From Armatimonadota bacterium (GTDB taxonomy: Bacteria; Armatimonadota; Fimbriimonadia; Fimbriimonadales; Fimbriimonadaceae), in assembly GCA_016125185.1 (NCBI GenBank), contig WGMG01000006.1:1116001-1180000 (forward strand): a DNA stretch of 64,000 bases, given 5' to 3'. Shown one piece after another: positions 58,768 to 60,688 of the stretch. Both the position numbers and the translations under genes were made by a program. The notes under the pieces were generated by a model, which saw only the letters and a list, made by a program, of their open reading frames with translations, did no database searches and was not told where the DNA came from. Every line of letters begins with the position of its first letter. Within the stretch, counting starts at the first letter, position 1.

Positions 58768-59373
58768 CTAATCAATTCGTCCTTTCGTCGAATTACCACT
58801 TCGGCGCTCCGCTTTTCGGGTTGCCTGCTCCAGCACACGGCCAAGGCCCTTAAAGATTGCCTCGATGATGTGATGGTCGTTTTCGCCTGAAATCTTTTTG
58901 ACGTGGATCGTGAAGCCAGCATTGGCCGAAAAGGCGCGCAGGAATTCCTTCACGTTCTCAGTCGCGAGTCCGCCAACGGTGTCGCGGGTGTAATGAACGT
59001 CGTAGAACAGGCCGCTTCGGCCGCTGATGTCGAGCGCGACCAAAACCAACGCCTCATCCATCACCATGTGGCACGAGCCGTACCTCTCGATCGGACCGCT
59101 GGACTCCAGCGCATCGCGAAAGGCTCGGCCAAGCACGATACCGGTGTCTTCCACCGTGTGATGGTCGTCGATATGCAGGTCGCCTTCGGCTTCGATCCCC
59201 ACATCGAACTGCCCGTGGTAGGCCATCAAGTGGAGCATGTGGTCGAAAAAGCCAATGCCAGTGGAAATATCCTGCTTCGTCCCGCCGTCGAGGTCGAGCA
59301 CGATATGGATGTTCGTCTCTTTCGTTTCGCGATCAACTTCGGCAAAACGCACGCCAGGGGCCGACTTACTCAT
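58768..59373 (-). CDS. hisB: Imidazoleglycerol-phosphate dehydratase
   Basis: HisB catalyses the sixth step of histidine synthesis, a manganese-dependent dehydration. The 201-residue protein has the two repeated metal-binding motifs: GFFDHMLHLMAYHGQFD with DDHHTVEDTGIVLG, and the C-terminal SGENDHHIIEAIFKGLGRVL. There is no N-terminal phosphatase domain, so it is the monofunctional type. The start is the ATG at 59373, next to an 18-bp palindrome. No other his gene lies nearby. Confidence 0.96.
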   Translation of the reverse strand: MSKSAPGVRFAEVDRETKETNIHIVLDLDGGTKQDISTGIGFFDHMLHLMAYHGQFDVGIEAEGDLHIDDHHTVEDTGIVLGRAFRDALESSGPIERYGSCHMVMDEALVLVALDISGRSGLFYDVHYTRDTVGGLATENVKEFLRAFSANAGFTIHVKKISGENDHHIIEAIFKGLGRVLEQATRKAERRSGNSTKGRID

Positions 59374-59374
59374 G

Positions 59375-59392
59375 GGTATGACATAACATACC
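59375..59392. promoter_or_regulatory. 18-bp palindrome at the hisB start
   Basis: GGTATG-ACATAA-CATACC lies one base from the hisB start codon, over the likely promoter. It could be an operator. No regulator is identified. Confidence 0.4.
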
Positions 59393-59436
59393 ACCGAAAG
59401 ATTGGATTCGTTTCCGTCGAAATGCGGTTCCGACAA

Positions 59437-59595
59437 AATTAAGATGGGGTCGCGACGATCAAGACCACGACCCCACAGGAGGTGCTAGAATCATCCGGCC
59501 ATCAAAGGCTGCAGCGCCTTCGTCTGCTAGACCATTCAGATTCAAGCCGCAAAGGCGGAAGGCTAAAGCATCGGAGCCAGGACGACTCACAAAGC
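59437..59595. other. Region between riboswitch and hisB, no gene seen
   Basis: Contains a possible hairpin (GGGGTCG with CGACCCC on the minus strand near 59450-59480) that might be part of the expression platform. It is followed by ATCTTAATTTTG, which is not a convincing T-run. A 32-codon minus-strand frame has no recognisable product. Confidence 0.4.
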
Positions 59596-59741
59596 ATTTC
59601 TTCTCTCGCACACCTACGGGGTTAGCTGACGGGTTCGGGCCAAGAGCTTCCCTAGAGTCCCAATTGACTCATTCACCCCAAAGTTTGGGTCCCCCGATGA
59701 AGACTCATTGCAAGTCTTCATTCGGCGTTGGCTTTGCAACC
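59596..59741 (-). ncRNA. Cyclic di-AMP riboswitch (ydaO-yuaA type)
   Basis: Read on the minus strand the sequence contains the conserved ydaO core in order: GGGGGACCC, TTTGGGGTGAAT, AGGGAAGCTCTTGG, and CCCGAACCCGTCAGCTAACC followed by CCGTAGG. A 5' hairpin (ATGAAGACT with AGTCTTCAT) precedes it. TATCAT (59753-59748) fits a -10 element with a start near 59741. Such RNAs bind c-di-AMP and usually turn off cell-wall hydrolase or potassium-transport genes. The next minus-strand gene is hisB, about 220 nt away, which is not a usual target, so this may be an orphan or a separate small RNA. Its ends are approximate. Confidence 0.85.
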
Positions 59742-59815
59742 ATTTCTATGATACACATCTTTCCCCATCGGCGTTCCGATTTTCGCCGAAAAATATCGGT
59801 AAAATTTGAAGCTAC

Positions 59816-60688
59816 ATGGCAGTCCTCGTCGACAAGAACACGAAGGTCATCGTCTGTGGGATGACTGGACGCGAAGGAGCTTTTCACACAGAACAAATGA
59901 TCGCCTACGGAACCAACGTTGTTGGTGGCGTCACTCCCGGAAAAGGAGGCCAGGAATTTCTTGGCAAACCGGTCTTCAATACCGTTCATGAAGCCGTCGA
60001 AGCCACAGGTGCAAACGCCTCGGTGATCTTCGTTCCGCCCCCCTTCGCTGCCGACTCGGTATTGGAATGCGAAGATGCCGGGCTTCCCTTCGTCACCCTC
60101 ATCACCGAAGGTATTCCGATTTCCGACATGACGCGCGTCGTCAACCGACTGCGGGCCAACGGCGTCACTCGTCTGCTGGGCGGCAACTGCGCCGGCATCA
60201 TCACTCCTGGCGAATGCAAAATGGGCATCATGCCGGGTCACATATTCGCTCCCGGCGACGTTGGTCTGGTTTCCCGCTCGGGCACCCTCACGTACGAAAT
60301 CGTTTGGGAACTGACGCGTGCTGGTCTCGGCCAGACGACTTGCGTCGGCATCGGCGGCGACCCGCTTCCGGGCACCCGCTTTGTCGAGGTCATGGAGATG
60401 TTCCAGAATGATCCTAAGACCAAGTCGGTTGTACTGGTCGGTGAGATCGGCGGCTCGGACGAGGAGACTGCGGCTGATTACATTCGCACCAAGATGACCA
60501 AGCCGGTCGTCGGCTTCATCTCGGGCCGGACGGCCCCTCCAGGAAAGCGAATGGGCCACGCCGGAGCAATTATTAGCGGCAAGATGGGAACGCCTCAGTC
60601 GAAGGTCGAAGCTCTGGAGGCAGCAAGGGTCCCGGTCGCCGATCGAACCTCGGACGTGCCGCATCTGCTGAAGAAGCTGATTTCGTAA
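59816..60688 (+). CDS. sucD: Succinyl-CoA synthetase alpha subunit
   Basis: This 290-residue subunit carries the CoA-binding domain and the phosphorylated histidine of the citric-acid-cycle enzyme that makes ATP or GTP from succinyl-CoA. Landmarks are [40 protein letters not shown], and the phosphohistidine loop KRMGHAGAI near residue 245. The partner sucC is not adjacent, which is unusual because the two normally form one operon. TAAAAT lies 10 nt before the ATG. Confidence 0.96.

Follow-up and report, generated by a model that had tools for sequence, protein, structure and literature searches.

Cyclic di-AMP riboswitches are known to precede genes for potassium and amino-acid transporters and cell-wall and osmotic genes, as given in the part of a published account that was used here (PMC7266159). 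Riboswitches that belong to longer or trans-acting RNAs have been described in Listeria, where a B12 riboswitch at the 5' end of Rli55 decides whether the longer non-coding RNA is made, and where the terminated SAM riboswitches SreA and SreB act in trans on the prfA mRNA (both from excerpts of PMC8079631). Small RNAs that carry the anti-Shine-Dalgarno sequence CCUCCU, the csRNAs, have been described in streptococci (from excerpts of PMC4438229). The window analysed here (the whole stretch of 64,000 nucleotides) contains a locus that combines parts of these systems, namely a c-di-AMP aptamer followed by a non-coding body, an anti-Shine-Dalgarno motif, and an intrinsic terminator.

The predicted RNA and its distribution across the order

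Comparison of the window with the Rfam models gave one match above gathering in 64 kb, to RF00379 (91.7 bits, E 3.1e-20; the gathering threshold is 38 bits), with an alignment that covers model positions 1-134 of 134 and is therefore full length. Both parts of the aptamer core, GGGGTGAAT and CCCGAACCCGTCAGCTAACC, were present. The initial annotation, which had been made from the sequence alone and had proposed a ydaO aptamer with this core on the minus strand at 59437-59760, was borne out by the ydaO-yuaA model scan, and its span agrees with the RNA delimited here. Three additional RF00379 matches and one c-di-AMP synthase (diadenylate cyclase) domain (PF02457, E 9.8e-39) were found in the same genome, so that c-di-AMP signalling is expected in this organism. 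The RNA is a predicted c-di-AMP binder with an aptamer of the ydaO/yuaA type.

By sequence, the aptamer stands at the 5' end of a predicted non-coding RNA of about 310 nt, which has its own -10 and an intrinsic terminator before hisB (Table 1). The TATAAT-like score upstream of the aptamer had a z of 8.2 over the 51 loci of the window's kind defined below and was reached by 0 of 400 shuffles, and TATAAT-like hexamers were not enriched in two control stretches. The stretch after the aptamer (body and terminator) folded at a z of -3.64 relative to shuffles, and in the predicted minimum-energy fold of the window copy the ACCUCC was unpaired, between body and terminator. No Rfam family was found for the body; with permissive settings the window region gave only RF00379 and one snoRNA match far below gathering, and six related loci scanned at gathering returned no known family for this part. 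The 5' hairpin may also pair over a long range with part of the body, but this is suggestive only. The pairing reached p <0.05 in 6 of 21 loci, with weak individual p values, and gave a combined p of 1e-5 that was computed on related sequences; in 13 hand-picked pairs of hairpin and body elements, 7-10 of 10 predicted pairs could form.

Table 1. Features of the predicted RNA and its flanking genes, in coordinates of the window.
Feature	Position	Strand	Basis or remark
sucD, divergent upstream neighbour	59816..60688	+	PF02629/PF00549
-10-like hexamer TATCAT, predicted promoter of the RNA	59748..59753	-	TATAAT-like enrichment upstream of aptamers
5' hairpin GGTTGCAAAGCC, GCAA loop, abuts aptamer P1	59730..59741	-	possible alternative partner 59554-59546
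c-di-AMP (ydaO/yuaA) riboswitch aptamer	59596..59737	-	RF00379, 91.7 bits
Structured non-coding body, ~110 nt	59485..59595	-	fold z-score; small ORF absent from two closest relatives
CTTTGCGGC, possible long-range partner of 5' hairpin	59546..59554	-	
CACCTCCTG, anti-Shine-Dalgarno mimic, putative seed	59476..59484	-	37/51 class b loci
Intrinsic terminator, then T-rich tail	59434..59476	-	13-pair stem 59476-59444 by scan
-10-like element of hisB, GGTATGTT	59385..59392	-	hexamer TATGTT ends 11 nt before ATG
hisB, neighbour, probably not target	58768..59373	-	PF00475 (IGPD), E 1.3e-59

Each of the 113 genomes of the order was scanned for RF00379, and 84 gave a match. A total of 136 oriented loci were compared, consisting of the window and 135 matches; a partial match (G015:C20, 35 bits) was left out. 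Loci in which the aptamer is followed by a short leader and then by a small ORF with a Shine-Dalgarno sequence before it were designated class a (63 loci, an upper bound because the filter was mechanical). Loci of the window's kind, with non-coding body, ACCTCC motif, and terminator, were designated class b. A loose list of 59 loci having ACCTCC and a stable fold was reduced to 51 class b loci by a further pattern, leaving out L045 and L053, where ACCTCC falls inside a class a ORF, and L050, L070, L101, L152, L157, L161, and L188, which were assigned to class c. Eleven of the 51 also pass the filter for a Shine-Dalgarno sequence plus ORF and were kept, their ORFs looking spurious or running into hisB. 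Class b thus defined occurs in 51 of the 84 aptamer-bearing genomes, with exactly one copy in each. From elsewhere in the phylum 17 loci were collected, of which L282 and L286 were left out as mis-anchored; none of the remaining 15 had ACCTCC within the 330 nt examined, and the architecture therefore looks like an invention of the order.

A covariance model of the body (R1) matched 25 of the 113 genomes, at one place each, and by coordinates all 25 matches adjoin an aptamer on the same strand; 13 of them are members of the model. The window's own copy, which has a divergent body, was not matched by R1, so that it was placed in class b by its synteny, its motif, its terminator, and the order of its parts. 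Compensatory changes were found at 15 of 29 predicted pairs among 13 sequences and at 9 of 38 predicted pairs among 7 sequences of family f5, a sister family in the same order; these counts are moderate evidence for a structured body, as the alignments and the folds share the same data.

Several other kinds of aptamer locus were observed in the comparison. Class c (L070, L101, L152, L161, L168, L188, L050, L105, and L173) is a second, apparently non-coding kind that follows c-di-AMP aptamers; most of its loci have a GGAGG-like stretch directly after the aptamer and then AACCTCC, with TCACCACTGGGGCC in several, and the genomes concerned have no class b locus, as if one had replaced the other. 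In family f5 (L066, L071, L077, L082, L093, L100, and L102) the body contains invariant GTCAGG...CCTGAC stretches, which, if paired, would enclose the body and occupy part of the motif; the pair never varies. Other aptamers (L110, L103, L098, L051, L084, L061, and others), including L110 in the window's own genome, precede small proteins of about 90-135 aa that are uncharacterised, among them one that begins MLTEFEVRRR and another type that ends in PFMEFSS. No match above the Pfam cut-off was obtained for representatives of these proteins, and two had no NCBIfam match. In L056 and L108 the gene after the aptamer matches a methyltransferase weakly (in L056 a fragment, Pfam E 2.3e-5, below cut-off), and a TACCTC that lies upstream in L056 could sequester the Shine-Dalgarno sequence.

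Anti-Shine-Dalgarno motif and proposed mode of action

The motif is identical over 8 nt to the 3' tail of the 16S rRNA of the same genome, in which the tail sequence TGGATCACCTCCTT occurs once, and on this account it would be able to pair with strong Shine-Dalgarno sequences. The form CACCTCCTG was found in 37 of the 51 class b loci, CACCTCCTA in 6, TACCTCCTG in 4, and single variants in 4; ACCTCC itself was present in 50, and the remaining locus had GCCTCC. Terminators were scanned on both strands of the compared loci (2.1 Mb), those up to 330 nt downstream of an aptamer being counted as aptamer-near. ACCTCC preceded 35 of the 50 aptamer-near terminators by no more than 25 nt, as compared with 1 of 213 elsewhere. 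In the 300 nt that follow the aptamer, CACCTCCTG was present in 37 of the 136 loci, with 0 of 136 both in the 300 nt upstream and at 400-700 nt downstream; because the loci share descent, these counts do not amount to a probability. In the alignment of family f1 no other fully conserved stretch is as long as the motif, and in that of f5 the motif is among the most conserved. Its predicted accessibility is modest (about 0.48 unpaired versus 0.31 locally); with the aptamer included the mean was 0.40 and the window copy 0.44, figures that are uninformative since the pseudoknotted aptamer was left unconstrained. Homologous bodies in three genomes (G010, G013, and G014) match R1 yet lack the motif. 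Separately, the motif was considered as the Shine-Dalgarno sequence of a gene on the opposite strand and rejected, as no start codon stood at the right distance in some loci inspected by eye.

The initial annotation had left three options for the aptamer, which were control of histidine synthesis, a stand-alone regulator, and a lost target gene. The second is supported by the RNA's own -10, the non-coding structured body, the anti-Shine-Dalgarno motif, the terminator, the single copy per genome, and the variable neighbour. We put at about 0.6 the probability that the locus encodes a stand-alone regulatory RNA of about 310 nt, with its own c-di-AMP riboswitch, that acts by anti-Shine-Dalgarno pairing in trans and whose output is lowered by c-di-AMP. 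Transcription would start at the RNA's own promoter between sucD and hisB and stop at the intrinsic terminator before hisB. The body would present ACCUCCUG, a copy of the 16S anti-Shine-Dalgarno tail, and this segment would most likely pair in trans with the Shine-Dalgarno sequence of some mRNAs and lower their translation. Since the tail with which the ribosome binds mRNA is copied in the RNA, the latter probably tunes the translation of other genes, and c-di-AMP binding would reduce the output of the full RNA.

The direction of control is suggested by family f5, in which all 8 loci examined (seven of class b, plus L055, itself cut by a contig end) have an intrinsic terminator about 60 nt past the aptamer. 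The 5' arm of this terminator can pair with the P1 3' strand and the nucleotides that follow it, at -12.9 to -25.5 kcal/mol, values computed with no null model. Because a terminator with a competing P1 pairing is a ligand-OFF layout, c-di-AMP should switch the RNA off. In the f5 model P1 would form when c-di-AMP is bound and the RNA would stop early, and the full RNA with its anti-Shine-Dalgarno motif would be made when the ligand is absent. The window and five f1 relatives were examined and showed no such early terminator, and the OFF direction should be taken as an analogy drawn from the f5 terminator/antiterminator and not from the window's clade.

Target sites were sought in the genome. 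GGAGG-N4-9-ATG sites were about twice as numerous as in the reversed control (867 versus 409). AGGAGGTG-N-ATG was not commoner in this genome than its control (6 versus 11), and the extended seed complement CAGGAGGTGC occurred at 6 sites, one of which is the RNA locus itself, versus 7 for its control, so that it yields no target list. Class a mRNAs were considered as co-evolved targets with a negative result, pairing within a genome being no better than between genomes; in a permutation of the seed against class a leaders in 28 genomes the mean was -17.0 versus -17.7 permuted (p 0.94). A tentative extension, which we consider possible and rather doubtful, is that in this order the c-di-AMP riboswitch has become the sensor of a single-copy, ribosome-mimicking RNA, which displays the 16S anti-Shine-Dalgarno sequence and competes for mRNAs with strong Shine-Dalgarno sequences. 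In that case c-di-AMP would set the translation of the subset of genes led by Shine-Dalgarno sequences, including those of small proteins that have c-di-AMP riboswitches of their own.

With no target pairing signal beyond the Shine-Dalgarno core, and with a body that is structured and conserved beyond the motif, a stand-alone c-di-AMP-controlled RNA could instead have as its partner the ribosome or a protein (EutV in the case of Rli55) and not the Shine-Dalgarno sequences of particular mRNAs. We judge this unlikely, given that the most conserved stretch is an anti-Shine-Dalgarno sequence beside the terminator.

hisB and other readings of the locus

The next gene on the minus strand is hisB, with its ATG at 59373, 222 nt past the aptamer, which matches the distance of more than 200 nt first estimated. 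Beyond it, between hisB and rpoB, are three tandem small paralogous proteins of 121, 97, and 90 aa (58725-57722, minus strand), which match each other by tblastn and of which none is above the Pfam cut-off. The palindrome that the initial annotation reported at the start of hisB is present in the window (GGTATG-ttatgt-CATACC, 59392-59375); it is not conserved as a palindrome and contains the -10-like TATGTT. A -10-like hexamer before the hisB ATG had a z of 5.7 over 23 hisB loci, which was reached by 0 of 400 shuffles, and the best hexamer ended 6-11 nt before the ATG in 20 of the 23.

A conventional cis riboswitch, in which formation of the terminator ahead of hisB, and with it the expression of hisB, would depend on c-di-AMP, would suit the shared orientation, the terminator between aptamer and gene, and the presence of hisB within 420 nt downstream in 18 of the 51 class b loci. 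Over the whole comparison hisB starts within this distance of 23 of the 136 aptamers, the same 18 carrying the motif. The other 33 class b loci have no hisB within 420 nt, and in the synteny comparison the nearest homology-supported gene within 600 nt was on the same strand in 13 of these, convergent in 5, and absent in 15. Nine neighbours were scanned and comprised a uracil phosphoribosyltransferase (twice, convergent), a prolyl oligopeptidase, a GGDEF response regulator, a PPIase, an RNA polymerase beta subunit, a GNAT protein, a DUF2231 protein, and a sigma factor. The usual riboswitch context, in which the adjacent downstream gene is controlled, is therefore not what these loci present, as the downstream gene varies among homologous loci; sucD flanks 27 of the 51, upstream on the other strand. 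The gene and the RNA also occur apart. In Armatimonadetes bacterium Uphvl-Ar2 (HisB 58% identical to that of the window) hisB adjoins sucD with no RNA between them, and the genome has no RF00379 match. In Fimbriimonas sp. D15.bin.35 (69% identical; Fimbriimonas belongs to Armatimonadota, Fimbriimonadales) there is no motif before hisB, and the class b RNA precedes a peptidase gene. The aptamers of this genome (G292) are placed as in the same-genus genome G015, and the order of the window is probably Fimbriimonadales. Since hisB has its own -10-like box, is missing from 33 of 51 loci, and occurs without the RNA, control of hisB, and with it c-di-AMP control of histidine synthesis, is disfavoured and we regard it as improbable.

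We give the same low standing to a second cis arrangement, in which ACCTCC pairs with an earlier purine-rich GGAGG segment of the same RNA and acts within the switch. GGAGGTG does occur in the bodies of L043, L052, and L079, but in L060 and L073 this segment reads GGAAGAG, with ACCTCC invariant. That the aptamer is a decaying relic whose original target gene was lost would account for the lack of a downstream target gene, but it is highly improbable because motif, terminator, and promoter are conserved across families of one order and the aptamer still scores 91.7 bits. A small protein encoded between aptamer and hisB, suggested by a 31-codon ORF that starts at 59597 directly after a GAGAG stretch, is just as hard to credit, because in the two closest relatives (L034 and L035) its start codon is followed at once by a stop (ATG-TGA) and the longest complete ORFs from aptamer to terminator in the 51 class b loci are close to shuffles in length (mean 34.5 aa versus 31.2 +- 1.8).

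Comparison with known systems

If the stand-alone reading is correct, a nucleotide second messenger would be linked through a riboswitch to a trans-acting RNA. The order of Armatimonadota would gain a conserved single-copy regulator that is amenable to deletion and testing, and 'orphan' riboswitches without a target gene would have to be considered as possible heads of small RNAs. In the open-licence papers searched we recognised no description of a c-di-AMP riboswitch that heads a small RNA or of an anti-Shine-Dalgarno variant, and none in which Fimbriimonas and riboswitch were named together.

Like the described RF00379 riboswitches, the locus has a full-length aptamer far above gathering and a synthase domain in the same genome, but here the aptamer heads a non-coding RNA and not a gene. 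Rli55 shares a 5' riboswitch that gates a longer regulatory RNA, a layout into which the f5 terminator fits; it differs in that, according to the excerpts used, Rli55 sequesters EutV through ANTAR elements, whereas the conserved feature here is an anti-Shine-Dalgarno motif. SreA is likewise a riboswitch RNA that acts in trans on translation, as is proposed for the RNA here, but in the same excerpts it also controls its downstream operon in cis, and the present loci have no conserved downstream gene. The csRNAs share the CCUCCU-type anti-Shine-Dalgarno motif, the low similarity between members, and the terminator, and differ in being driven by CiaR and in numbering two to six per species, with no aptamer mentioned in the portion of the source used (PMC4438229). 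Riboswitch-controlled non-coding RNAs are already known, and what would be new here is a putative c-di-AMP-sensing member that bears an anti-Shine-Dalgarno motif and is conserved across an order.
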